A DNA stretch of 51,430 bases from a virus, in IMG/VR virus record IMGVR_UViG_3300046714_000185, positions 1 to 51,430 of that record. One strand, 5' to 3'. The position numbers were made by a program, and so were the translations under genes. Under the pieces are notes generated by a model that searched no databases, had not been told where the DNA came from, and saw only the letters and a list, made by a program, of their open reading frames with translations. How positions within the stretch are numbered: position 1 is the stretch's first letter; each line of letters starts with the position of its first letter. Positions 4,545-40,870 of this stretch are shown here, in pieces.

Positions 4545-5576
4545 ATGGCCTTCCCGAACCTAAGTGAAATTGTCACCACGACCCTGCGCAATCGCACAGG
4601 CGAATTGGCTGACAACATGAGCCGCAACAACGCCGCACTCCTGCGGCTGTCGCGCCGTGGCAATATCAAGACTTTCAGCGGTGGCCGAACCATCGTCCAA
4701 GAGCTGAACTACGCTGACAACCAGACCTTCCAGTGGTATTCCGGTTATCAGTCGCTGAACATCGCGCCGTCCCAGGTCTTCTCGGCGGCTGAATACCCTA
4801 TCCGTCAGGCAGCGCTCGCTATCTCCATCAGCGGTCTGGAAGAGCTCCAGAACTCTGGCGAAGAGGCGATCATCGATCTGCTTGAGTCGCGCATTGCGAA
4901 CGGCGAAGACACCTTCATGAACGGCCTGAGCCAGGGCATCTATGGTGACGGCTCGGTGACCAACTCAGTGGGCGGCCTTCAGCTGCTCGTCGCCAACGCG
5001 CCTACTTCCGGCGTTGTGGGCGGCATTGATCGCGCGGCTTGGACCTTCTGGCGCAACCAGAAGTGGTCGGCAGGTACCGATGGCAGCACTTCACTGAGTG
5101 TGGCGACCATCCTGTCTCAGATGGATGCTTTGTGGCCGCAGCTGATTCGTGGCCGTGACTCGCCTGATCTGATTGTCATGGATAACACCATGTGGCGCTT
5201 CTACCTTGGCGCGCTACAGAGCATTCAGCGCATTCAGACTGAGTCTTCCGCGCCTGACATGGCCGAGTACGGCTTCCAGACGTTGAAGTACCTCACGGCT
5301 GACGTTGTGATGGATGGTGGCTTCCAGGGCTTCAGCGGTGACCCGCTTCCGACGCAGCTGTCTTCCAGCTCCTCGTCGGTTGGCGGCGCGCCTGCAAGCA
5401 CGGCGTACTTCCTCAACACGAAGTACATCTTCTGGCGCCCGCACGCCAAGCGCAACATGGTCCCGCTTGATCCGGATCGCTTCTCGATCAACCAGGACGC
5501 CATGGTCCGCCTGATTGGCTGGGCTGGCAACATGACGTTGTCCAATGCCTTCCTCCAGGGTGTCCTGATCGCCTAA
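4545..5576 (+). CDS. major capsid protein
   Basis: 343 residues behind Shine-Dalgarno AAGAGGAG. The N-terminal segment LSEIVTTTLRNRTGELADNM followed by NNAALLRLSRRG, a strand-rich middle and an ending in RLIGWAGNMTLSNAFLQGV match the phage major capsid family with an HK97-type fold as I recognise it from podoviral genomes. It forms the icosahedral shell around the DNA. Location after portal and scaffold, isolated leader and length all agree. There is no sign of an N-terminal delta domain, consistent with the separate scaffold gene. Confidence 0.85.
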   Translation: MAFPNLSEIVTTTLRNRTGELADNMSRNNAALLRLSRRGNIKTFSGGRTIVQELNYADNQTFQWYSGYQSLNIAPSQVFSAAEYPIRQAALAISISGLEELQNSGEEAIIDLLESRIANGEDTFMNGLSQGIYGDGSVTNSVGGLQLLVANAPTSGVVGGIDRAAWTFWRNQKWSAGTDGSTSLSVATILSQMDALWPQLIRGRDSPDLIVMDNTMWRFYLGALQSIQRIQTESSAPDMAEYGFQTLKYLTADVVMDGGFQGFSGDPLPTQLSSSSSSVGGAPASTAYFLNTKYIFWRPHAKRNMVPLDPDRFSINQDAMVRLIGWAGNMTLSNAFLQGVLIA

Positions 5577-6229: not shown

Positions 6230-6790
6230 ATGGCTGCTCCTACCCAGTGGTCCGTCGCAAGTAAAGAAGGTGTCGACGTCACCACCTACTACGCTAACAT
6301 TTCGGCGTCTGTGTCACCTGAGACACCGGCGCCTCCGTTCGCTGTGGGCGACATGGTCCATGGCAACCAAGGCAGTGAGTTCATCTTTGTTCAGGCTTCC
6401 ACATCGATCACCCTTGGTGATTTTGTGGTAGTCACGAACAATTTCTTCGCGAACTCAATGACCACTACCAACATTGCAAGCACCCTTGGCGCCGATATCG
6501 CACAGGTGGGCGCAATCTTGGCTCAGTCGGTTACGTTCATCCCGGCCGGTGCCTTCTTCTGGGCAGCGCTCCGTGGGCACAACTTGCCGGGCAACGCTAA
6601 CGATGCGGTTGTTGCTGGTGCGCCTGTTCAGCTGTTCACGAGTGCCACCGCTGGTATCGTCACCTCTACTTCGGGTGGCGTTGGCCTTGCGGGCATTGAG
6701 GTTATCTCTTCGGTCACGCCACTCTTCAAACTGACTTGGCCGCGCGCCTCCGTCAGCAACAGCTTGGCGGCTCCGCTCAGCAACGCTTAA
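6230..6790 (+). CDS. putative virion protein after the capsid gene
   Basis: 186 residues, preceded by AAAGGAAACAGCT. Ser/Thr/Ala/Val-rich and beta-rich with no charged tails; segments such as FAVGDMVHGNQGSEFIFVQA and a late GLAGIEVISS suggest a capsid decoration or head-fibre-type protein. It is followed 29 bp later by a strong intrinsic terminator, which makes it the last gene of the head transcription unit. No specific family recognised. Confidence 0.65.
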   Translation: MAAPTQWSVASKEGVDVTTYYANISASVSPETPAPPFAVGDMVHGNQGSEFIFVQASTSITLGDFVVVTNNFFANSMTTTNIASTLGADIAQVGAILAQSVTFIPAGAFFWAALRGHNLPGNANDAVVAGAPVQLFTSATAGIVTSTSGGVGLAGIEVISSVTPLFKLTWPRASVSNSLAAPLSNA

Positions 6791-6869: not shown

Positions 6870-7817
6870 ATGTCAAAATGGCAGTTTAGTTACGAAGGAT
6901 GCACTGAAACCGATATCACCAAGGCACCGTCGATCATCGATCGGTCTACCAACAAAGTTTTCATTCCTATCAAGTACAACCTCCAAAAACCAAAGAATCC
7001 CGATGGCACCTTCCGTGACCAAACCGGCCAAGCCGCCGCTAACATGCGTCACGCTCACTCCTTGGGACTCCCAGAACTTGCCTTCCGTCAGACCCCACGC
7101 TTTGGACGTGCGATCATTGTGGGTGGGGCCCCCTCTGTTAAAGCACATTTGGAACAAATACGAGCTCTCGCAGCCGATCCCGATAACTGGGTATTTGCCA
7201 TCAATTGGACTCACACTTGGCTGATCCAAAACGGGATTGTCCCCAAGGGCTGTGTGTTTTTTGAGATTGACGCTGAGCCCGGTACTGTCCTCAAGAATGC
7301 TCACAAGGATTGCACCTACTTCATTTGCTCTCACTGTGAAGCGGTTACTTTCAGTGCCCTTGAGGGCTTCAAGCGCGTGTTGTTCCACAGCCCCCCTAAC
7401 TCAGATGCAGAGCGGCTTGTGAATGAGGAGCTGTTCAAGGACAGCTACCTGATTGGTGGCGGTGTAGGCACATTCACACGGACACTTACCGTAGCGCTCA
7501 CCATTGGGTTTAGGGGCATCGAGCTTTTTGGTGTGGATGGATCATTCCCTCAGGAATCAAAGTCAACTCACGTTGAGGGCTACGAAACGGTCAACAATGT
7601 CAGCACCGATGCTTTTGACGTGATCGCACAAGTTACCAATGATCACACAAAGATGCGGAAGTTCAAGACTGTGGGCTACCTTGCCCTACAGGTTGATGAA
7701 TTCCAGGAATACTGCCGCATCAACCACCAGCATTTTGCCTGTCGTATCCATGGTGATAGCCTCATGCGCTTTGCACATGAGAACTACTTCCCAGAGCAGT
7801 ATGATTATTCTCGCTAG
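6870..7817 (+). CDS. DUF115/Maf-type putative glycosyltransferase
   Basis: 315 residues from the ATG at 6870, which has an AGGAG Shine-Dalgarno; an earlier in-frame ATG at 6804 would put the terminator inside the gene and is rejected. Core motifs are RAIIVGGAPSV near residue 80 (nucleotide-sugar-binding-like Rossmann loop), an acidic segment VFFEIDAEPG, and GGGVGTFTRTLTVA then IELFGVDGSFP, the hallmark pattern of the DUF115/MAF_flag10 family. In that family Maf proteins transfer nonulosonic acids to flagellin Ser/Thr. The gene opens the cassette with NeuB, NeuA, LegC and NeuC homologues, so transfer of the CMP-activated sugar is the likely role. Acceptor unknown: virion protein, other protein or glycan. 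Confidence 0.65.
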   Translation: MSKWQFSYEGCTETDITKAPSIIDRSTNKVFIPIKYNLQKPKNPDGTFRDQTGQAAANMRHAHSLGLPELAFRQTPRFGRAIIVGGAPSVKAHLEQIRALAADPDNWVFAINWTHTWLIQNGIVPKGCVFFEIDAEPGTVLKNAHKDCTYFICSHCEAVTFSALEGFKRVLFHSPPNSDAERLVNEELFKDSYLIGGGVGTFTRTLTVALTIGFRGIELFGVDGSFPQESKSTHVEGYETVNNVSTDAFDVIAQVTNDHTKMRKFKTVGYLALQVDEFQEYCRINHQHFACRIHGDSLMRFAHENYFPEQYDYSR

Positions 7818-7828
7818 TGAGGAACACC

Positions 7829-8270
7829 ATGAAGTATCGTAAGAAGCCGGTCGTTATTGAAGCCACTCAGTGGTTCAAGAATGGTGATCACCCCCAAGGA
7901 TGGGGTGGGTGAGGATGCTACGGACCCAATTTTTGGGGGTACCTACAAGCGCCTTGAGGGGGCTGTAGTAAGGTTCTACAGGACCCCTGGCAGCTGGAAG
8001 GCAACTTGCCAGCATTGCAAGGGTAAGATGGACGATCACGGCTGGATTGACACGCTTGAAGGTAGTCACACTGTCTGCCCTGGTGATTGGATCATCACTG
8101 GGGTCAAAGGTGAGATGTACCCCTGCAAGCCTGATATTTTTGCAGCCACCTACGATCCAGTTTCTGAGAGCCGACCAACCATTGATGAACTGGAAGCGAT
8201 CTTGAACAGGGAAGATGACGATGAGGAAATCGTCATCTTCCCTGATGGATCAATCAGCACCAAAAGTTAG
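7829..8270 (+). pseudogene. frameshifted small conserved phage protein
   Basis: A good start (AGGA then ATG at 7829) opens [16 protein letters not shown], the very common beginning of a family of ~140-residue phage proteins, but this frame stops at 7906. The rest of the same family continues in the next frame to 8270, including [19 protein letters not shown] and [16 protein letters not shown]. The join falls at the run of five C at about 7891-7895: removing one C restores DHP-KDGVGE and a single ~146-residue protein. Two Cys pairs could bind metal. This is a one-base insertion, a sequencing or assembly indel, or less likely +1 frameshifting at CCC-C. Function of the family is unknown. Confidence 0.7.
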
Positions 8271-8277
8271 GTAATCG

Positions 8278-9174
8278 ATGATCAAGATCCTTCAAGCCGC
8301 CAGAAACTCTGACGAATGGGAAGCTTTGGTTCCTGACGACCCGCACTACTCACCGGCCTACTACAGAGCTTTTGGCGAAGGTCAGCTTGCGGTCATGGAT
8401 GGCCCGATTGGGCCTGTGATCCAGCCCTTCAGGCATCAGGAAGGGAACTGGATCGGTAACGCATACAACTATGGGGGCCCTATCGGCCCCTATAGTTCTG
8501 CCTCACGCTACCGTGAAGAATTTGGTGAATGGAAGAACAAAGCCGGACTCAATGAACGTTGCACCCTGTGCCCATTCCTGATGAACATCCATGCTGGGCA
8601 CAACCTTGAACGGCGGGATGTGGTGCTGGCTGATCTTACTGCCATCAAACTTCGCACCACTACCCGGCACATGGTTGAGAAGGCTCTGCGGGCCAAAGCC
8701 AAGGTGAATTTTTTTGGCGCTGATGATCTGACGTACGTCACTGAATTTGAGCAGATGTATCAAACTGCAATGAGCCGAAAGAAGGCCCGGGAACATTGGG
8801 TCTATCCTGATGGATTCTTCTACAAAGTATTGAAAGAACTCGGGCCCAAGAGATCCGCCTTGGTCATCACGTCCTTGGGTGACATGATCGAGTCAGGATG
8901 CCTGCTCATATTTAACGATAAGATTTGTTACTACCATTGGGCTGCCACTCACGGTATCAAAAGGGATTCCGGAGCCAACCACTTCCAGGTGTCATCAGTG
9001 ATGAATTGGGCTCAGGAACAGGGCATGTCGTATGTCCATCTTGGAGGCGGGCTGACACCTGAGAAGGACAGCCTTTGGACGTTCAAATCAGGATTCTCAC
9101 CGATCACTAGGACTGTGTTCACTTACGCAACAAACTGTAAAAAGGTGGATCATGACCGTAACGATAGTTGCTGA
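8278..9174 (+). CDS. FemAB/BioF2-like GNAT acyltransferase
   Basis: 298 residues. The pattern of an N-terminal half with NYGGPIGP and a C-terminal half ending in YVHLGGGLTPEKDSLWTFKSGF matches FemAB-like (peptidoglycan/exopolysaccharide-type) GNAT proteins; the LGGG...DSL..FK signature is frequent in sialic/legionaminic gene clusters. It probably N-acylates an amino-sugar intermediate, in the role of LegH/PseH, or adds an acyl group to the finished nonulosonate. Its end overlaps the synthase start by 23 bp, so translation is coupled. Exact substrate is inference. Confidence 0.65.
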   Translation: MIKILQAARNSDEWEALVPDDPHYSPAYYRAFGEGQLAVMDGPIGPVIQPFRHQEGNWIGNAYNYGGPIGPYSSASRYREEFGEWKNKAGLNERCTLCPFLMNIHAGHNLERRDVVLADLTAIKLRTTTRHMVEKALRAKAKVNFFGADDLTYVTEFEQMYQTAMSRKKAREHWVYPDGFFYKVLKELGPKRSALVITSLGDMIESGCLLIFNDKICYYHWAATHGIKRDSGANHFQVSSVMNWAQEQGMSYVHLGGGLTPEKDSLWTFKSGFSPITRTVFTYATNCKKVDHDRNDSC

Positions 9175-9985
9175 GGCAGGTTTGAACCACGGAGGTCTTC
9201 TTACTAATGCGCTCCGTTTGGCGGATGTTGCCAAGCTTGCCAAGGCTGACATTGTGAAGTTCCAAACTTATGATCCTGACAAATTGATGCGTCAGAATGA
9301 TCCTGATTTTAAGCTGCTCAGCTCCCTCGCCCTCACACGCGATCAATTCGTCGTTCTTGCCAAGCACTGTGAAAGCATTGGCATTGAGTTCATGACCACG
9401 CCGGGTGAGTTGGACAGCCTCAAGTTTGCTGTTGAAGAGCTTGGCGTGAAGCGGATCAAACTTGGTTCTGATGATCTCACCAATTCACGTCTTCAGTGGG
9501 CAGCTCGTCAAACCGGGCTCCCAAAGATCCAGTCAACAGGTATGGCCACTTTGCCTGAGATTTTGGAAGCTGTTTCAGCCCTGGGGGCTGAAAAGCTGAC
9601 ACTTCTGCATTGTGTCAGTTCCTACCCATGCCTGCCAGCAAAAGCGAACTTGCGTGCCATGGCAACCATGCGTCGGTACCTTGCTGAGCGCCTTCCTGAT
9701 GAAATTCCTATTGGGTATTCCGATCACACTCGTAGCCATAGCGTATGTCAGGCGGCTGTGGTTCTTGGCGCAACCATGATTGAGGCGCACATCATGCTCA
9801 TGGAGGGGAAGCCTCCTGTTGATGAGTGTGTGTCCTTCACCCCAATGCACTTCTCCACCTTGGTGAAAGGCATCCATTTGGCAGAGCTGATACTTGGCTC
9901 TGGCATCAAGCTGCCAAATGACGACGAACTGAGACTCATCCCCAAAGTCCGGAAAGGCCCGGACGGATTCAGAGGAACCCCATGA
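9152..9985 (+). CDS. neuB: NeuB-family nonulosonic acid synthase (lacks SAF domain)
   Basis: 277 residues with AAAGGTGG Shine-Dalgarno. The TIM-barrel motifs are all present: AEAGLNHGG (7-15), VKFQTYDP, EFMTTPGE, KLGSDDLTN, STGMATLPEI, LLHCVSSYPC, IGYSDHT and GATMIEAHI. The family condenses phosphoenolpyruvate with a six-carbon 2,4-diacetamido or N-acetylmannosamine-type sugar to give a nine-carbon sialic, legionaminic or pseudaminic acid. Typical NeuB is ~340-350 residues; this one stops after the barrel and lacks the C-terminal SAF (antifreeze-like) domain that covers the partner active site in the domain-swapped dimer. Overlaps the next gene by 4 bp. Confidence 0.9.
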   Translation: MTVTIVAEAGLNHGGLLTNALRLADVAKLAKADIVKFQTYDPDKLMRQNDPDFKLLSSLALTRDQFVVLAKHCESIGIEFMTTPGELDSLKFAVEELGVKRIKLGSDDLTNSRLQWAARQTGLPKIQSTGMATLPEILEAVSALGAEKLTLLHCVSSYPCLPAKANLRAMATMRRYLAERLPDEIPIGYSDHTRSHSVCQAAVVLGATMIEAHIMLMEGKPPVDECVSFTPMHFSTLVKGIHLAELILGSGIKLPNDDELRLIPKVRKGPDGFRGTP

Positions 9986-10611
9986 AAATTCTTGCCTTGA
10001 TCCCTGCACGCATTGGTTCGCAGCGTTTGCCCCGCAAGAACCTTCTTGATCTTGGTGGCAAACCGTTGCTCCGGTGGACTATTGATGTTGCCAAAGAATC
10101 AATGGTCTTTGATGACATTGTGGTGTCAACTGACGCTCATGAGATCAGCACTTTGGCGAAGGCTAATGGGGTATTTCCTCTAATTCGTCCAACGTCTTTG
10201 GCTGATAGCGTTGCGCCGATGTTGCCGGTGGTCAGGCATGCGGCTAATAATTTCCCAGGTGACATTATCGTGCTCCTTCAACCGACCTCACCATTCAGAT
10301 CAGTTGAGGACATTCACGGCTCCTTGGAGCTGATGAAGAATTCCGGTGGTGACGCTGTGATCTCAGTTGGTGTCCCCGAGCCCGACTATTGCTTTGAGCG
10401 TGGGCATGCACAACGGCTTCGAGAAGCTAAGAACATTGTAGTAGCTAACGGGGCGTTGTACCTTATTACCCGTGAGCATCTCATGGTTGGCGATTGGTAC
10501 AACGGGATCACATATGCTTACGAAATGCCCCCCGAGCGGTCGCTCGACATCGACACAGAAATGGATATCACGATTGCTAGGGCGATGGTCAAAAGTGGAC
10601 AACCTTGTTGA
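9982..10611 (+). CDS. neuA: CMP-nonulosonic acid cytidylyltransferase (NeuA/LegF type)
   Basis: 209 residues. Signature motifs: IPARIGSQRLPRKN at the N-terminus (CTP-binding loop), LLQPTSPFRS, ANGALYLI and the metal-binding SLDIDTEMD near the end. The enzyme activates the free nine-carbon sugar with CTP to CMP-sugar and pyrophosphate. The length is normal for the short single-domain forms. ATGA overlap with the synthase at the start and 17-bp overlap with the aminotransferase at the end. Confidence 0.92.
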   Translation: MKILALIPARIGSQRLPRKNLLDLGGKPLLRWTIDVAKESMVFDDIVVSTDAHEISTLAKANGVFPLIRPTSLADSVAPMLPVVRHAANNFPGDIIVLLQPTSPFRSVEDIHGSLELMKNSGGDAVISVGVPEPDYCFERGHAQRLREAKNIVVANGALYLITREHLMVGDWYNGITYAYEMPPERSLDIDTEMDITIARAMVKSGQPC

Positions 10612-11716
10612 TGCTATCGATAAATGCCTACCAGGAGAACGGCCCATTTATCACCACGCCCCGTGCATAGGGGCATCTGAACAGGGCTACATTCACGCGG
10701 CGCTCGCCAACGTCAGCAATGACATTACGCAAAACAAGCTTGGCTGCGAACTAGCCAAGTATTGTGGTGTTGAGATGGCGGTGCCCGTCAGCAGCGGTAC
10801 GACGGCCCTACAGCTGGCTCTGCTGGCTTGTGGGGTAAAGCACGGTGAGGAGGTCATTGTGCCCACCCTCACCTTTGCTGCCACTGCTGCGGCCGTTGTC
10901 CATGCGGGGGCAGTGCCTCACTTTGTGGACGGAACCACCTCAATCAATGCTTACAAGCTCAGGCGCCATCTTGAGAGCATCACTGCCCCCTCACACACCA
11001 AGAGGGGGCGGCTTAATGTCAAAACTGGGCGTGTCATTTCAGCCATCATCTTCGTCGACCTCCTCGGGTTCCCGGCGGATGTAGTTAAATTGACTGAGAT
11101 AGCCCGTGAATTCGGTCTCATCATCATTGAAGATGCGGCTGAAGCATTGGGATCCAGCCTTCAAGGCAAACGTTGTGGTTCTTTTGGTGACGCTGCGATC
11201 TTGAGTTTCAACAATAACAAGATAGTAACTGCTGGCGGTGGTGGGGCGGTGCTCACCAGCGACGAATGGGTTGCTGCTCAGGCGTACAATCTGGCAAACA
11301 CTTGTCGCGTGCAGCATCCATGGCTGGTGGAGCATAGCGGCGTTGGCTTTAACTACAGGATGCCAACCTTGAGTGCTGCGCTCTGCTTGTCACAGCTTGA
11401 GAAGATTGATGGTTTCCTAAAGGCCAAAAAGGCTCTTTGGGATCGCTACTCAAAAGCAGGGGCTGTGATGCTTGCCCCAAGTGAGTGGCAGGGGGAACCT
11501 AATTATTGGCTGAGCACGATGCTGTGTGGTGAGCGTGATCTGGTTTTGAAGAAGCTTCATGATCGTGGAATTTACGCACGGGCTCTGTTCACGCCGCTGC
11601 ACAAGCTTGAATGCTTCAAACGCTACCCAAGGCATACCAATCTAATGCAGGCAGAGGATCTGTTTGCAAAGGCTGTCTGTCTACCATCAGGTAAAGGAGC
11701 AATCTCATGGACATAG
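10595..11716 (+). CDS. DegT/LegC-type PLP sugar aminotransferase
   Basis: 373 residues from the GTG at 10595, with AGGG upstream; the longest frame from 10472 would overlap the cytidylyltransferase heavily and its extra residues look non-coding. DegT/DnrJ/EryC1 features: VSSGTTALQLAL (PLP phosphate region), EVIVPTLTFAATA, IIIEDAAEALGS (Asp to pyridine N), and SFNNNKIVTAGGGGAVLTS with the PLP lysine at about residue 209. The NKI-TxGGGG form, rather than the usual TEGGM form, is typical of the LegC subgroup that makes the 4-amino group of legionaminic acid precursors. Next gene overlaps by 10 bp. Confidence 0.85.
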   Translation: MDNLVDAIDKCLPGERPIYHHAPCIGASEQGYIHAALANVSNDITQNKLGCELAKYCGVEMAVPVSSGTTALQLALLACGVKHGEEVIVPTLTFAATAAAVVHAGAVPHFVDGTTSINAYKLRRHLESITAPSHTKRGRLNVKTGRVISAIIFVDLLGFPADVVKLTEIAREFGLIIIEDAAEALGSSLQGKRCGSFGDAAILSFNNNKIVTAGGGGAVLTSDEWVAAQAYNLANTCRVQHPWLVEHSGVGFNYRMPTLSAALCLSQLEKIDGFLKAKKALWDRYSKAGAVMLAPSEWQGEPNYWLSTMLCGERDLVLKKLHDRGIYARALFTPLHKLECFKRYPRHTNLMQAEDLFAKAVCLPSGKGAISWT

Positions 11717-12888
11717 TTGTTATTTCAGGAAGCAGAGCCGATCGTGGGCCACTCAAGCCGGTGGTGGAAGCCCTCAAAGCTGAACTGATCTTCCTGCCTC
11801 ATTATGAGGTGTCAAATCCCTCAGATGCTGCTTTGTCTGCCTCTCATGCGTGCCACCAAACAGTATCTTTACTGTATGAAAGGGAGGTACCTGACTTTGC
11901 CATTGTGCTTGGTGATCGCCACGAAGTTTTGGGGGCGGTGACTGCCCTCAACTTGATGAACATTCCTATCGCTCATCTCAGCGGTGGTGACATCACTGAA
12001 GGGTCGCAAGACAATGCCATGCGTCATGCTATTACCAAGCTTTCACACATTCACTTTCCCACCAACACGGATGCTGCTGCCCGCATTATTGATATGGGAG
12101 AGGAATCTTGGCGGGTCTTTACTGTAGGCTGCCCGGGGATTGACAAGGTGTTGGCTACTGAGTTGATACCTAAGGAAGAGGTATGCAGGCGTTTGGGTAT
12201 CACAGCCCCTTACATTCTTGTATCCTATCAACCAGCTACCCTAAGTGATGACCCCATTGAGGAAGCACAGATACTTCTTGACTACCTCAGTGTTGCTGGA
12301 ATGCCTTGTGTGTTTGCGTCAGTTAATCCTGATGCTTTCAGCACTCACATTGGCCAAATGTTTGCGAACTTTTCTGTTCGGCACAATGGCATCATCTTTG
12401 ACATGCCGCAGCGACTGTATTTGTCAGCAATGAAGCATTGTGAGTATATGATTGGGAATTCTTCATCAGGGTTCTATGAAGCTCCAACTCTCAAGGTGCC
12501 TTTTATCAACATTGGTGATCGTCAGAAGGGTAGGATTGCAGCTGCAAATATTCTGAGTGTTCAAGCCAAAGATATTGCGGCTGCTGTTACCCATCTACAT
12601 GGGATTAAGATGTTACAAATAACGAATCCATATGGTGATGGTCACGCAGCTGAGCATATCGCCTCAATCATGCGGTCGGTTGGGACGATAAATCGAAGGA
12701 AACTTCTCACAAAACGATGGGTGCAACATGACGTTCAATCAGATATGGGAAAAGACTCACCAGGAAAAGACTTGGGGATCTTACCCGAGCGAAGACTTGG
12801 TGCGTTGGATATTCCGGTCATACGGTCACTCCAAGGAATCCCACTCGAAACTTCATATCCTAGATCTTGGTTGCGGTCAGGGGAATAA
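11707..12888 (+). CDS. hydrolysing UDP-sugar 2-epimerase (NeuC/LegG type)
   Basis: 393 residues. GT-B fold epimerase motifs: ISGSRADRGPL, VLGDRHEVLGAV, IPIAHLSGGDITEGSQDNAM, and YMIGNSSSGFYEAPTLKVP with NIGDRQKGR. NeuC/LegG enzymes invert C2 and release UDP, giving the free ManNAc- or 2,4-diacetamido-mannose-type substrate of NeuB. Homologues normally end near NPYGDGHAA; here the frame runs ~60 residues further, through 161 bp of the methyltransferase gene, and the extra tail has the look of a shadow frame. The native stop was probably lost by mutation or indel. Confidence 0.88.
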   Translation: MDIVVISGSRADRGPLKPVVEALKAELIFLPHYEVSNPSDAALSASHACHQTVSLLYEREVPDFAIVLGDRHEVLGAVTALNLMNIPIAHLSGGDITEGSQDNAMRHAITKLSHIHFPTNTDAAARIIDMGEESWRVFTVGCPGIDKVLATELIPKEEVCRRLGITAPYILVSYQPATLSDDPIEEAQILLDYLSVAGMPCVFASVNPDAFSTHIGQMFANFSVRHNGIIFDMPQRLYLSAMKHCEYMIGNSSSGFYEAPTLKVPFINIGDRQKGRIAAANILSVQAKDIAAAVTHLHGIKMLQITNPYGDGHAAEHIASIMRSVGTINRRKLLTKRWVQHDVQSDMGKDSPGKDLGILPERRLGALDIPVIRSLQGIPLETSYPRSWLRSGE

Positions 12889-13348
12889 TACGTGGTTCCT
12901 GGCCCGGGAGGGCTTCAAAGTTTTTGCCGTTGACGGCAGTCATGCTGCCGTCCGGAAGACCATGCGCAGGATGATTGATGAGGCATGTAGTAAGTATGTG
13001 GTGGGAGGAGCTTTTGATTTTACAAAGCTGACTTGTCACAACGAAGTATTTGACGCGGTGGTTGATGTAGTCAGTTCGTGTCACAACAACATCCATGATC
13101 TGCCTGACATCTATAGAGAAGTAGCCCGGGTACTGAAGCCGGGGGGTCGCTTTTTCCTGATGTGCCCTACTACTGGAAGCAGCCAAGAACCATTCTTGGA
13201 CTACGGGGCAGTCAGTTTCATCGACGAGCTGGACCTTCGATTGCTCCTTCAGGAGTGGTTTGATATATTGGAGCTTACAAAGAGCTCATATCAACCATCA
13301 TCTGGGTGCAAGGTTGAGCACTGGGTCGTGAGCGCCACAAAACGATAG
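12728..13348 (+). CDS. class I SAM-dependent methyltransferase
   Basis: 206 residues. SAM-binding motif I is ILDLGCGQGNNTWFLA (~44-59), followed by FKVFAVDGSHAAV, the acidic post-I strand, a DAVVDVVS motif IV region and LKPGGRFFLM: a type-11/25 methyltransferase core of normal length. As the last gene of the sugar cassette it may O- or N-methylate the nonulosonate or a carrier glycan. Its first 161 bp are overlapped by the extended epimerase frame. Substrate is inference from context only. Confidence 0.8.
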   Translation: MTFNQIWEKTHQEKTWGSYPSEDLVRWIFRSYGHSKESHSKLHILDLGCGQGNNTWFLAREGFKVFAVDGSHAAVRKTMRRMIDEACSKYVVGGAFDFTKLTCHNEVFDAVVDVVSSCHNNIHDLPDIYREVARVLKPGGRFFLMCPTTGSSQEPFLDYGAVSFIDELDLRLLLQEWFDILELTKSSYQPSSGCKVEHWVVSATKR

Positions 13349-13357
13349 AGGTATGTT

Positions 13358-14152
13358 ATGGCTGGAGATGACACTGGCTTGCCGGGTCTGAGCGGTATTG
13401 ATTGGCAGGATTCACAGCAGATTGTCGGATTGGCGCGTTACGGCGGCGGCGACAAGAGCATGGTGGTGGTGTTCTACATGCACCCTGAACACCAGCCCGC
13501 AGCGTCTGCATCCGCAGGACGTCAGATCTTCAAGGATGTGGTTTACGTCCGAATTCAGCCCCCTGGTGAACGCCTCAACATAATTGACCGCCCCGCTACT
13601 GAGTCCGATGCCAAACGCTGGCCGTTGCAATGGGCAGCGTTCAAGCAGAACCAGATGCAGGTTCCTGATGGCACTCCGATTGAACAGCTGTATCCTGACA
13701 AGCCAGCCATCGCCGCTACCTTGCGTGCTTATGGTGTGCACACCATTGAGATGTGTGCTGAGCTATCAGGCAATGCCATCGATAACGTCGGCATGGGCTG
13801 TCAGACTTACGTCAATGATGCTCGCAAGTACATTGAGATTTCGAATAAGGGTGTCAGCAGCACTGAGATGCGTCGTGAGATTGAGAAGCGTGATCGTGAG
13901 ATCGCACGTCTCAAGGATAACATCGGCGTTTTGCAGGGGCAGGTTGACAAGCTGGTGAATGAGCGCGGTGCGTCTCCATCGCTCGAAACCGTTCAGCAGC
14001 TGATTTCTCAGGTCATGGGGCGCCCAGTGCACAGCCCCAATATGCGTCTTGATCCGCAGGCTGCGATGATCGCTGCCAATCACAAGACTACTGATATTGC
14101 CAATAAAGCGAGGAGCAAGGTCAAGATTCGGCAGCGGGGTAGAAGCCGCTAA
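13358..14152 (+). CDS. conserved virion-module protein with coiled coil
   Basis: 264 residues with AGAGG Shine-Dalgarno. N-terminal half is a folded domain (VVYVRIQPPGERLNIIDRPA, WAAFKQNQ, YGVHTIEMCAEL); residues ~170-200 form a clear coiled coil (EMRREIEKRDREIARLKDNI) and the C-terminus is basic. Proteins of this plan are frequent beside capsid/connector genes of podoviruses and are probably structural, but the precise role is unknown. It restarts the virion module after the sugar cassette. Confidence 0.7.
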   Translation: MAGDDTGLPGLSGIDWQDSQQIVGLARYGGGDKSMVVVFYMHPEHQPAASASAGRQIFKDVVYVRIQPPGERLNIIDRPATESDAKRWPLQWAAFKQNQMQVPDGTPIEQLYPDKPAIAATLRAYGVHTIEMCAELSGNAIDNVGMGCQTYVNDARKYIEISNKGVSSTEMRREIEKRDREIARLKDNIGVLQGQVDKLVNERGASPSLETVQQLISQVMGRPVHSPNMRLDPQAAMIAANHKTTDIANKARSKVKIRQRGRSR

Positions 14153-14234: not shown

Positions 14235-15200
14235 GTGACCAAGACGCTTCTCCAAATAGTACAGACAGCCCAAGCTGAGCTTGGGCTTACTCAATCTGCG
14301 ACGGTAGCTGGAAATTCCGACGTCACCACCGTGCAGATGTTTGCCTTGGCCAACCGTTGTCTCGACGAACTTCGTCGGATGGCTCGTTGGACATCAATGC
14401 AATCTGAGTTTGATATGGCTGTTCCGGCCGCTGTCACCACCACGGGTAACATGCAGGCTGGATCAGCAATCATCACCAACATCCCGAATACATCAAGTCT
14501 GACTCCCGCTACCGCATGGGCGGTGCAGGGCACCGGTTTGTTGCAAGCTTCCCGTATTCAAACGGTGGATTCCGCCACTCAGGTCACTTTGAATATGCGG
14601 AACACCAACACAGCTGATGTGAATGGTTCTGTCATTGTGTTCGGGCAAGATACTTACGCAATGCCAACGGATTTTGATTGGTTCAATAACCGCACCATGT
14701 GGGATAGGACCAACCGGTGGGAACTGTTGGGGCCGGATTCACCTCAGCTTGATCAATGGCATCGTTCTGGCATTGTGGCAGTTGGGCCGCGCAGGCATTA
14801 CCGTAAAATTGGGCCGACAGGCACCAGCTTCCGTATTTGGCCAGCGCCGTTTGAGATCACGCAGCCGCTTCAGCTGGTGTTTGAGTATCTGACGATCAAC
14901 GCAGTGGCTGTGCACGGTGGGACTACTTACGCTCAGAATTTTGTCAACGATGATGACATCCCATTGCTTGACGATCAGTCTGTCATCATGGGCATCAAGT
15001 GGATGTTCTGGGAGATCAAAGGATTTGGCAGCTACGCCACGGCACAGGGTCGTTGGGTTGATTACGTCAACCGCCTGATCGCACGCGATGGCGCTGCGCC
15101 AACGTTGCAGTTGGCCAAACGCATGAATCCAATCTTCCTGTCGCCGTCAAACGTGCAGGACGGTTTTTTCCCAGGACCTAGTGGCCCTAACACAGGTTAA
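14235..15200 (+). CDS. head-tail connector (gp4-like) protein
   Basis: 321 residues from a GTG preceded by GGAGGG. The N-terminus TLLQIVQTAQAELGL and later LANRCLDELRRMARW are typical of the podoviral head-tail adaptor family (P22 gp4-like/tail-tubular-A-like), and the late segment EYLTINAVAV...DDDIPLLDDQSVIMGIKWMFW also fits. It would bind below the portal ring and join the tail hub. Position between the cassette and tail genes supports this. It is followed by a mobile endonuclease gene. Confidence 0.7.
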   Translation: MTKTLLQIVQTAQAELGLTQSATVAGNSDVTTVQMFALANRCLDELRRMARWTSMQSEFDMAVPAAVTTTGNMQAGSAIITNIPNTSSLTPATAWAVQGTGLLQASRIQTVDSATQVTLNMRNTNTADVNGSVIVFGQDTYAMPTDFDWFNNRTMWDRTNRWELLGPDSPQLDQWHRSGIVAVGPRRHYRKIGPTGTSFRIWPAPFEITQPLQLVFEYLTINAVAVHGGTTYAQNFVNDDDIPLLDDQSVIMGIKWMFWEIKGFGSYATAQGRWVDYVNRLIARDGAAPTLQLAKRMNPIFLSPSNVQDGFFPGPSGPNTG

Positions 15201-39188: not shown

Positions 39189-39686
39189 TTAGCTCCTCAT
39201 CCTATCCTGTTTACGTGCCTGGTCCATTTTCATCCGCCTTTGCATATATACGGCGGTGTCTTGACGATCAGTTCCTCGGAACGAGTTTTGCTCGTAGTAA
39301 TTGGCAACATATAATTCACAAAGATGCTTGAGCATGCTTGCCCGTTGCAAAAATGATTCCTTCAACACCCCTAATCTATCCGCTTTGCGTTTTGCAACTG
39401 CGTAGGCCCGATAAGCTATTTTACGTTTGGGGTCGCTTCTTACACGAGCTTTCACCCCGTCATTAGTGATCTTTTCATCACGAAGATCTGCTTTGTCCCG
39501 GATTTCATTATCCAGTTCCGCCTCAATTATGCCGAGATCTTCCTTGAGAGCATCGCGCTGATCCACAGCCTCAATGTAGGCTTCGCCTACATTGCAAAAG
39601 ATCTCTGACTGGTGGACCAGTTCATCATCAAGGGCTGCCTTGTTGATCGCAAGGTAGCCCTTGAGTTCTTTCAGGTTGATTGTCAT
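39189..39686 (-). CDS. hypothetical helical protein between SSB-like and SPFH genes
   Basis: 165 residues, mostly helix/coiled coil (ELDNEIRDKADLRDEKITND) with a basic C-terminus. No family recognised. The start overlaps the SPFH stop (ATGA) and the stop is next to the SSB-like ribosome site. It could be a recombination mediator-type partner of SSB/RecA by position only. Confidence 0.6.
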   Translation of the reverse strand: MTINLKELKGYLAINKAALDDELVHQSEIFCNVGEAYIEAVDQRDALKEDLGIIEAELDNEIRDKADLRDEKITNDGVKARVRSDPKRKIAYRAYAVAKRKADRLGVLKESFLQRASMLKHLCELYVANYYEQNSFRGTDRQDTAVYMQRRMKMDQARKQDRMRS

Positions 39687-40870
39687 TTGGCCTTAGCTGC
39701 GTCTATGATTGCTTGTATCATGCCGGGGGTAATGACCATGGGCAGACCTTTGGTTGCCAAACCAGCCCCAAGCCCTTCCTGCACCTTCAGCTGTGCCAGG
39801 GCCTCAAGAACGGGCATCAACGGCCGCATGGTTTGAGCCATGTATTTGTCGTTGACTGCTTTCTGTACGTCCTCATCAAACTCAAAGGTATCGCCCCAGC
39901 CAATGAAGTCCAGGGTTATTCCTACAGAGCTGAAGAACTCACGGGCCTTTTGCTCAACAGTGGTGATAATCAGGTTTGTTTCGGCGTTTGCCTGATCAAA
40001 CGTTCGGCTGGTGATCTCAGAGCAAACCAGGGTCTGCACCTTCTTGCGGCCAACATCATCCATGACTTCCTGAAGGCTTCGGCCGTAGTAGACCGACGTG
40101 AAGATCACCTCAGGATTGGTGCGGTCGGCTGGCTTGCCTTTGACGTCCAAAGGTGGATTGACTCCAAACCGGTACAGGAACTTGGCAGCGTCACGTTCCA
40201 TGACCGATGTGCCGATTGAAACACCGGCAATGATGTTGAGCCCCTCCTTTGATTGACAAGGGAACCCTTCTTTCTTTTTGGACGTGCCCCGGTCCTCAGC
40301 ATCCACCCATTCACGTGAATAGGGGGTACGGTCAACAATGATCAGGCGTCCGGAAGGTACATAGTAGTCCCACCCAATGTAACCACCTGAATTGTTCAGC
40401 TTGGCGTGTGGGATCAAGAAGCGCTTGATTGCCAGCTTCTTCTCGTTTAGATAACCTTCACTATCAAGTTGAGCCTGTGAAGACTTGTTATCCCCCACAT
40501 CTGGGATCCAAAATGCCGATTCATTCGGCATTATGGTATAGGCTTCAGTGCGCTCAGTCTTCTCGTAGAAGGCTTTGGCGTTGTAGATGGGAAACATCAG
40601 AACTGTCAGGGCTGCCATAGCAGCAACCCACTTCCTGATTGGCCCCCACCAAATGCCAAGCAGTACTAGGCACGTTAGGAACCAAAGTATCATATGCCCC
40701 CACCCAAACATCCTGCTGAGAGCGAGAAAGTTCAGGTAGGACATATCGCTAGGCTCGAATTGACTGCCCGCAGCTTTGCCGACCATCAGCGTTTCAGCTG
40801 TACTGGTGACAAAAGTTAAGACGCCAACAACAAACAAAACCAGGGCAGTCGCTACCCCACGTGTAAACAT
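39683..40870 (-). CDS. SPFH/prohibitin-like membrane protein
   Basis: 395 residues; AAAGGAG ribosome site. Three N-terminal hydrophobic segments (residues ~5-25, 52-75 and 82-97) precede a domain with NIIAGVSIGTSVMERDAAKF, VIFTSVYYGRSLQEVMDDVG, QTLVCSEITSRTF and ITLDFIGWGDTFEFDEDVQK, typical of the stomatin/prohibitin/flotillin (Band 7) family. Members oligomerise on membranes. Here it sits between the clamp loader and SSB-like genes. It may tether the replication machinery or alter the host membrane; role inferred. Confidence 0.75.
   Translation of the reverse strand: MFTRGVATALVLFVVGVLTFVTSTAETLMVGKAAGSQFEPSDMSYLNFLALSRMFGWGHMILWFLTCLVLLGIWWGPIRKWVAAMAALTVLMFPIYNAKAFYEKTERTEAYTIMPNESAFWIPDVGDNKSSQAQLDSEGYLNEKKLAIKRFLIPHAKLNNSGGYIGWDYYVPSGRLIIVDRTPYSREWVDAEDRGTSKKKEGFPCQSKEGLNIIAGVSIGTSVMERDAAKFLYRFGVNPPLDVKGKPADRTNPEVIFTSVYYGRSLQEVMDDVGRKKVQTLVCSEITSRTFDQANAETNLIITTVEQKAREFFSSVGITLDFIGWGDTFEFDEDVQKAVNDKYMAQTMRPLMPVLEALAQLKVQEGLGAGLATKGLPMVITPGMIQAIIDAAKAK

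Follow-up and report, generated by a model that had tools for sequence, protein, structure and literature searches.

What would a phage do with genes for a sialic-acid-like sugar placed among the genes of its head, and where would such a sugar end up? This question is raised by the viral record IMGVR_UViG_3300046714_000185, whose 51,430 bases, analysed here as one stretch and called the window, hold a cassette of nonulosonate genes at 6870-13348. We propose that the cassette is a phage-borne protein-glycosylation island, which works like the flagellar islands of bacteria and modifies a virion protein, and we put the probability of this reading at roughly 0.6. The genes belong to recognised enzyme families, cassette and slot are conserved in other phages, and the first gene encodes a protein with a predicted Maf-like fold.

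The cassette and its enzyme families

All eight genes named in a preliminary description of this locus were located, seven of them intact and one broken, and for the DUF115 protein, NeuB, NeuA, LegC, NeuC and the methyltransferase the Pfam and NCBIfam profiles agreed with the families proposed there. The cassette lies on the plus strand. It begins with a DUF115/MptE-like protein of 315 amino acids (6870..7817), which matches PF01973 with 47.5 bits (cut-off 34.6), followed by the broken small phage gene (7829..8270). The latter runs in two frames as had been described: the first is open for 27 codons from 7829, a piece that we take, by its N-terminal motif, to be the probable start of the gene, and the second (7857-8270) matches phrog_419 (E 7.7e-23). 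This gene is probably not part of the sugar pathway. The next protein (8278..9174), earlier called a FemAB-like acyltransferase, matches Acetyltransf_6 (PF13480) with 29.1 bits over a cut-off of 22, whereas the FemAB Pfam model itself reaches just 14.5 bits, under its cut-off of 24.

The four enzymes that follow are of nonulosonate type. A NeuB/LegI-type synthase of 277 amino acids (9152..9985) matches PF03102 (187 bits, E 4.2e-55) and the PDB entries 6ncs and 1xuu, and a NeuA/LegF-type cytidylyltransferase (9982..10611) matches CTP_transf_3 (PF02348; 94.7 bits, E 9e-27), with the CMP-Neu5Ac synthetase 1eyr as best PDB match by profile (E 6.8e-33). For the LegC-type aminotransferase (10595..11716; DegT_DnrJ_EryC1, E 3e-73; TIGR04181, 321 bits) the GTG at 10595 is our preferred start, the longest open reading frame (ORF) beginning at 10472. 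The NeuC/LegG-type hydrolysing 2-epimerase (11707..12888) matches Epimerase_2 (E 3.3e-57), has 5xvs as best PDB match by profile (E 1.9e-58), and scores 273.7 bits with TIGR03568 NeuC_NnaA, which clears the cut-off of 235.9 and is the sole NCBIfam match of the cassette above its cut-off. An S-adenosylmethionine-dependent methyltransferase (12728..13348; Methyltransf_25, PF13649, E 4.2e-16) closes the cassette. From FemAB to the methyltransferase, each of the six genes runs into the next, by 23 nt (FemAB/NeuB), 4 nt (NeuB/NeuA), 17 nt (NeuA/LegC, provided that LegC begins at GTG 10595), 10 nt (LegC/NeuC) and 161 nt (NeuC/methyltransferase), which bears out the overlaps claimed before.

The claimed position between capsid-associated genes and the connector was likewise confirmed by PHROG and Pfam matches, the order on the plus strand being portal, major head protein, virion structural protein, cassette, conserved gene and SU10-type adaptor. 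On the left of this slot stand the major capsid protein (4545..5576; phrog_9953 major head protein, E 2.8e-103) and a Ser/Thr-rich head protein (6230..6790; phrog_29386 virion structural protein, E 6e-07; Ser plus Thr 20.4%); on the right, the conserved border gene (13358..14152), whose family profile matches p50 of phage Mx8 (E 1.6e-48), and the SU10-type adaptor or connector (14235..15200; PF24175, 32.5 bits, cut-off 27).

The predicted sugar

The legionaminic acid pathway runs through LegB, LegC, LegH, LegG, LegI and LegF. The preliminary description held that the cassette contains exactly the steps after a 4,6-dehydratase; aminotransferase, 2-epimerase, synthase and cytidylyltransferase are indeed there, but the description passed over the N-acetylation by LegH, for which the FemAB-type protein is the sole candidate. 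Its proposal of a CMP-nonulosonate pathway of legionaminic type is supported. The aminotransferase is nearer to the LegC family model TIGR04181 (321 bits, below the cut-off of 420) than to PseC (193 bits), NeuC passes its cut-off, and the nearest solved relative of the latter is a hydrolysing N,N'-diacetylbacillosamine 2-epimerase (202 bits, vs 159 for the bifunctional GlcNAc 2-epimerase/ManNAc kinase 4zht), thus the product would fit a legionaminic-type nonulosonate rather than a pseudaminic-type one, as far as sequence families can tell. Among the NCBIfam models for the synthase, NeuB_NnaB scores 209 bits (below its cut-off of 399.65) vs 134 for PseI.

The same cassette in other phages

A scan with the capsid protein gathered 70 viral loci that encode a relative of it. 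In two of them, L012 (on a 93 kb record) and L061 (on one of 88 kb), DUF115, FemAB, NeuB, NeuA, LegC and NeuC stand in the same order and in the same slot as in the window, bounded by a 6230-type protein and by the 13358 and adaptor genes. Identities to the window proteins in L012 and L061, respectively, were 43 and 54% for DUF115, 48 and 35% for FemAB, 48 and 49% for NeuB, 54 and 54% for NeuA, 55 and 48% for LegC and 44 and (by tblastn) 49% for NeuC; among the structural genes they were 44 and 50% for the 6230 protein, 56 and 62% for portal segments and 83 and 75% for the capsid protein, with 51% for the 13358 gene and 61% for the adaptor in L012. L061 has in addition a second DUF115 gene, inserted genes and a methyltransferase, and L012 two small inserted ORFs; relatives of the window methyltransferase stand in the cassettes of L061 and of two further records, L246 and L247, and none was found in that of L012. 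Since the same cassette occurs in two further phages of the group, chance or a chimera is very unlikely. The window comes from a truncated metagenomic record, in which an assembly chimera or a fragment of host DNA might be suspected, but phage genes with conserved synteny stand at both borders and the arrangement is repeated in L012 and L061; we therefore rejected this explanation as extremely improbable.

In quick trees, from which sequences longer than 520 amino acids were excluded, the window, L012 and L061 formed one clade for NeuB (support 98, 160 sequences), LegC (99, 84 sequences) and NeuA (89, 81 sequences). In a second quick tree of NeuC, for which three long-branch rows were excluded and the window protein was shortened to 352 residues, the three grouped with L246 and L247 (support 99). 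L246 carries FemAB, NeuB, NeuA, LegC, NeuC and a methyltransferase, all confirmed with Pfam, followed by terminase and by a portal of phrog_113, vs phrog_12082 in L061 and the window, and so belongs to another structural type. L247, cut at the contig end, preserves the end of NeuA, LegC, NeuC and methyltransferases, followed by an L246-like terminase. Because L246 has the module beside another type of portal, and because no FemAB was found by tblastn in the flanking sequence fetched for 80 bacterial NeuB loci, the best of 539, the module from FemAB to the methyltransferase seems to move among phages.

A second and different nonulosonate-like cluster was found in record G018 (40.6 kb; locus L239, 6750-11237), a relative with a DUF115 gene in the capsid slot and, elsewhere, a NeuB-type synthase just 32% identical to the group of the window, L012 and L061, a methyltransferase-like ORF, a weak cytidylyltransferase, a DegT aminotransferase and an SDR protein. 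It is a further sign of a link between DUF115 and sugar genes. Counted over the window and 50 of the 70 capsid-related records (L052, with DUF115 in the slot, is among the 20 left out), DUF115 is present in 18 of 51 records and in all four carriers of NeuB, window included, a probability of 0.012 if records are independent.

Wider scans returned little. A single-sequence NeuB scan of viral contigs gave no relative, whereas the capsid scan and three-sequence profiles did detect relatives; the 50,697 phage isolate records yielded three weak matches to NeuB and none to DUF115, and a FemAB scan nothing beyond the two known records. Among 79 viral NeuB loci (from the best 80 of 91), tblastn relatives of the window DUF115 or FemAB protein occurred in the flanks of L072 and L073 alone, which are the L061 and L012 records again; this set is non-exhaustive, as it missed L246, which came from a LegC scan. 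In the other viral NeuB loci (L074-L126), PF01973 was matched at E 0.001 in 24 of 50 tested out of 77, one of them above the cut-off, and perhaps other NeuB-bearing viruses have Maf- or sialyltransferase-like genes too.

The DUF115 protein and its slot

In a profile comparison with the PDB, the DUF115 protein matched the Maf flagellin glycosyltransferase 5mu5 of Magnetospirillum (E 3.4e-14, 55.7 bits) ahead of a pterin kinase (28.4 bits). Its structural model (pLDDT 80.6) had the same Maf as first neighbour (Z 22.2 over 224 residues, 2.6 A, 17% identity), a Methanocaldococcus pterin kinase as second (Z 14.5), and sialyltransferases at Z about 8-10. Of the 632 residues in the Maf chain, the protein of 315 amino acids aligns to 238-502, so that the central Maf (PF01973) fold is present and the further regions of a full-length Maf are not covered; because only the central part aligns, we call the protein Maf-like and not Maf. 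By this model its core is folded as in Maf glycosyltransferases, and transfer of a CMP-activated sugar is predicted. PF01973 is named after MptE and also covers a pterin kinase, so that the protein might be no glycosyltransferase at all, such as a pterin kinase or a structural protein, with the sugar genes as unconnected cargo. We consider this improbable: Maf comes first in both the sequence profile and the fold search, a pterin-kinase function ranked below it, and all four NeuB carriers, G018 included, have DUF115.

The content of the slot was compared in 33 of the 70 loci, those reaching from the capsid gene to the right border (L061 lies outside this set, its right side having been read from L072). 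DUF115 was present in 15, a TPR-glycosyltransferase in 10, neither in 8 and both in none, an exclusion with a probability of 5e-4 if loci are independent, a figure that ignores relatedness and includes the near-copies L003/L004, L023/L024 and L043/L065. A GT9-like C-terminal signal was seen in all eight aligned TPR proteins (out of the 10) at E up to 0.1, with 3.4e-6 as the best value; when 10 slot proteins were scanned, the other matches were to DUF5672, Glyco_trans_1_2 and GT8 (below cut-off), and five had no match. The earlier suggestion that the product decorates virions or the cell surface thus becomes more specific through the Maf core fold and the slot genes of 25 of the 33 loci, and the decoration itself is still something we infer.

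Two slot proteins, in L052 (5042-6454) and L053 (11545-12900), have by Pfam a DUF115 domain fused to a methyltransferase domain, and these fusions show weak matches to the flagellin modification protein PseD.

Candidate acceptor and proposed mechanism

The family profile of the 6230-6790 protein matches Mx8 p49, annotated as major virion structural protein (E 9.3e-13). Given the Maf-like fold, the alternation of DUF115 with TPR-glycosyltransferase and this membership of the upstream gene in the Mx8 p49 family, a virion protein is the most likely acceptor, with the 6230-6790 head protein as candidate. A gene of the family was called in 26 of the 33 slot loci, with a mean Ser/Thr content of 23.4% in 11 DUF115 loci, 21.5% in 10 TPR-glycosyltransferase loci and 15.3% in five loci with neither; we dropped this content as proof, since relatedness confounds the comparison and the protein of ppBjS10J-1, a cultured relative, reaches 24.9%.

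We envisage the following course, its steps ordered as in the established pathway. Presumably late in infection, the phage enzymes would act on UDP- or GDP-linked 4-keto-6-deoxy-GlcNAc, supplied by the host or by a phage 4,6-dehydratase such as that of L061. LegC would aminate C4, the FemAB-type enzyme might acylate the amine in place of LegH, and NeuC/LegG would remove the nucleotide by hydrolysis and invert C2. NeuB would then condense the sugar with phosphoenolpyruvate, and NeuA would attach CMP to give a CMP-activated nonulosonate, putatively legionaminic-acid-like. Finally, the Maf-like DUF115 enzyme would move the sugar to Ser or Thr of a virion protein, most simply that of 6230-6790, and the methyltransferase would modify the sugar or its precursor. 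That the phage would benefit is our supposition.

Flanking regions and relatives

The left end of the window falls inside the portal gene, whose ORF is open at base 1; read from base 40, its PHROG match (phrog_12082) begins at profile position 206 of 715, so that the 5' part of the gene is absent. The minus strand carries genes for RecA and DNA polymerase and, at 39683-40870, for a phage replication-side protein with a weak SPFH/Band 7 match (23 bits, cut-off 23.6). Toward an assignment of the host, no tRNA and no Rfam match was found in the window, and the best phage-isolate match of its capsid protein is to a Bradyrhizobium phage (53%).

The two genes that border the slot are direct neighbours in Mx8 and ppBjS10J-1; those of BUCT555 are separated by small hypothetical, holin and endolysin genes. 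Group I introns (RF00028) were found in or beside a split major capsid gene in five of seven relatives tested (L061 11784-12003, L062 10033-10268, L071 11124-11337, L051 9764-9997 and L040 11021-11292), and L061 has a GIY-YIG/HNH homing-endonuclease ORF (12417-13535) just downstream.

Weighing of the evidence

A number of observations, beside the pterin kinase within PF01973 and the relatedness of the slot loci, weigh against a virion-glycosylation island. Some concern the completeness of the pathway. For the 4,6-dehydratase, neither PF02719 nor PF01370 was matched in the window, a record cut inside the portal; L012, with its 93 kb, likewise yielded no dehydratase, and PF02719 was not found in L246 or L247. 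L061 does have a dehydratase (PF02719, 265 bits), whose gene is placed precisely between those of terminase and portal, a region that the window record is without, and this enzyme is nearer to PseB (221 bits) than to LegB (65 bits). The window NeuB has no Pfam match to the second domain (SAF) and, with 277 amino acids, is short beside a median of 355.5 in bacterial relatives, whereas the NeuB of L246 has SAF; about the last 40 residues of NeuC, an unconserved tail, extend into the methyltransferase gene (12728-12888), where the overlap of 161 nt compares with 4 nt in L061. Both features might reduce activity. In a first NeuC tree the three phages were not one clade.

No Hexapep match for LegH was seen in any of four cassette records, which may be incomplete, and Acetyltransf_1 was matched in the cassette records only within the FemAB protein of L061, with no GNAT outside FemAB. 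PF13480, in turn, was present in four of 29 records, exactly those with NeuB, NeuA, LegC and NeuC together (4e-5 if records are independent), and absent from L247, truncated by the end of its contig, and from G018 with its different cluster. Since PF13480 tracks the full cassette and LegH was not seen, the FemAB-type enzyme is the best candidate for the acylation and would stand in for LegH. Its low-confidence model (mean pLDDT 59) had FemX, the aminoacyl-tRNA-dependent Sba18 and MprF-type proteins as Foldseek leaders, and because these nearest neighbours depend on aminoacyl-tRNA it is possible, on this model, that an aminoacyl group is added. We advance only tentatively the wider picture of a mobile, phage-specific virion glycosylation, with a module of six genes from FemAB to the methyltransferase shared by several groups of phages, in which a FemX-like enzyme would replace LegH to give an N-aminoacylated nonulosonate; in one of these groups the capsid slot would alternate between Maf-like and FlmG-like enzymes, and the head would be coated with the sialic-acid-like sugar.

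These same features bear on the identity of the sugar. A pseudaminic-type, aminoacylated or methylated nonulosonate in place of legionaminic acid, a variant compatible with protein glycosylation, agrees with the PseB-like dehydratase of L061, with PseF as best NCBIfam model of NeuA (104 bits, below the cut-off of 205.7), with the likeness of FemAB, in its low-confidence model, to aminoacyl-tRNA-dependent transferases and with the methyltransferase at the end of the cassette, but the preference of the aminotransferase for LegC over PseC and the presence of the NeuC/LegG epimerase speak for the legionaminic route. We regard such a variant as possible, and short of an even chance.

Other points concern the destination of the sugar. 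L246 and L247 carry the sugar genes with no DUF115, and a search of them for a TPR-glycosyltransferase, run with no positive control, likewise found none. These records would agree with a serious rival, that the same CMP-nonulosonate ends on the host surface (lipopolysaccharide, capsule or flagellin), blocking superinfection or altering the infected cell. Of 539 bacterial NeuB relatives, the best 80 are encoded within nonulosonate clusters (with NeuC in the fetched flanks of 75 of the 80, LegC in 68 and NeuA in 62), and phage glycosyltransferases that alter host surfaces are known from the excerpts of PMC10955285 and PMC10202952. We nevertheless think this destination rather unlikely for the window, where the cassette sits in the structural module with a Maf-like first gene, in a slot alternating with TPR-glycosyltransferases beside a head protein. 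As to the acceptor, no glycosyltransferase is annotated in the slot of any of three cultured relatives, Mx8, BUCT555 and ppBjS10J-1, even though the head protein of ppBjS10J-1 is rich in Ser/Thr.

Comparison with known systems

Maf with nonulosonate islands is known from flagella, and glycosylated phage particles are known as well; the joining of both in a phage head module is what we propose here. Among the matches listed in the open-licence PMC literature, none describes a phage nonulosonate pathway with a Maf-like enzyme in a head module, and the excerpts of PMC4870245 and PMC11360552 contain nothing on such a virion system. If our reading is true, phages synthesise sialic-acid-like sugars and transfer them with enzymes of their own, by a chemistry familiar from bacterial flagella and capsules, and Maf/DUF115 genes in viral genomes would be read differently. 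A Maf-like core with a short head protein would be a simple two-part system for studying nonulosonate transfer, and charged head glycans might stabilise the particle, act in adsorption or help it evade recognition by the host.

The virion glycosylation of mycobacteriophages is not known to involve a nonulosonate pathway or a Maf-like enzyme. Their particles likewise bear sugars, as far as excerpts describe it (PMC10955285; Freeman et al. 2023). Prophage O-acetyltransferases of Acinetobacter are, according to the excerpt of PMC6586298, also phage enzymes acting on nonulosonic acid, but their substrate is the capsule, a host polysaccharide. FlmG, the flagellin glycosyltransferase of Caulobacter, a species without Maf, combines TPR and GT-B domains (PMC7591256, in excerpt), and the TPR-glycosyltransferases in 10 of 33 related slots share this layout; the likeness is by layout alone, and no such protein is in the window. 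With Maf itself (5mu5) the window protein shares the core fold, as the central part only (315 amino acids vs a chain of 632), and further regions of a full-length Maf serve acceptor binding (PMC13317340, in excerpt). A close parallel is with the flagellar glycosylation islands of bacteria, from which nonulosonate genes with maf are known next to flagellin genes (same excerpt). While the window cassette differs from them in lying among phage head genes, in its short NeuB and FemAB-type protein, and in having no LegH found and no flagellin, it shares with the legionaminic and pseudaminic islands an aminotransferase, a 2-epimerase, a synthase, a cytidylyltransferase, a methyltransferase and, next to a structural-protein gene, a Maf-like protein (PMC13317340).

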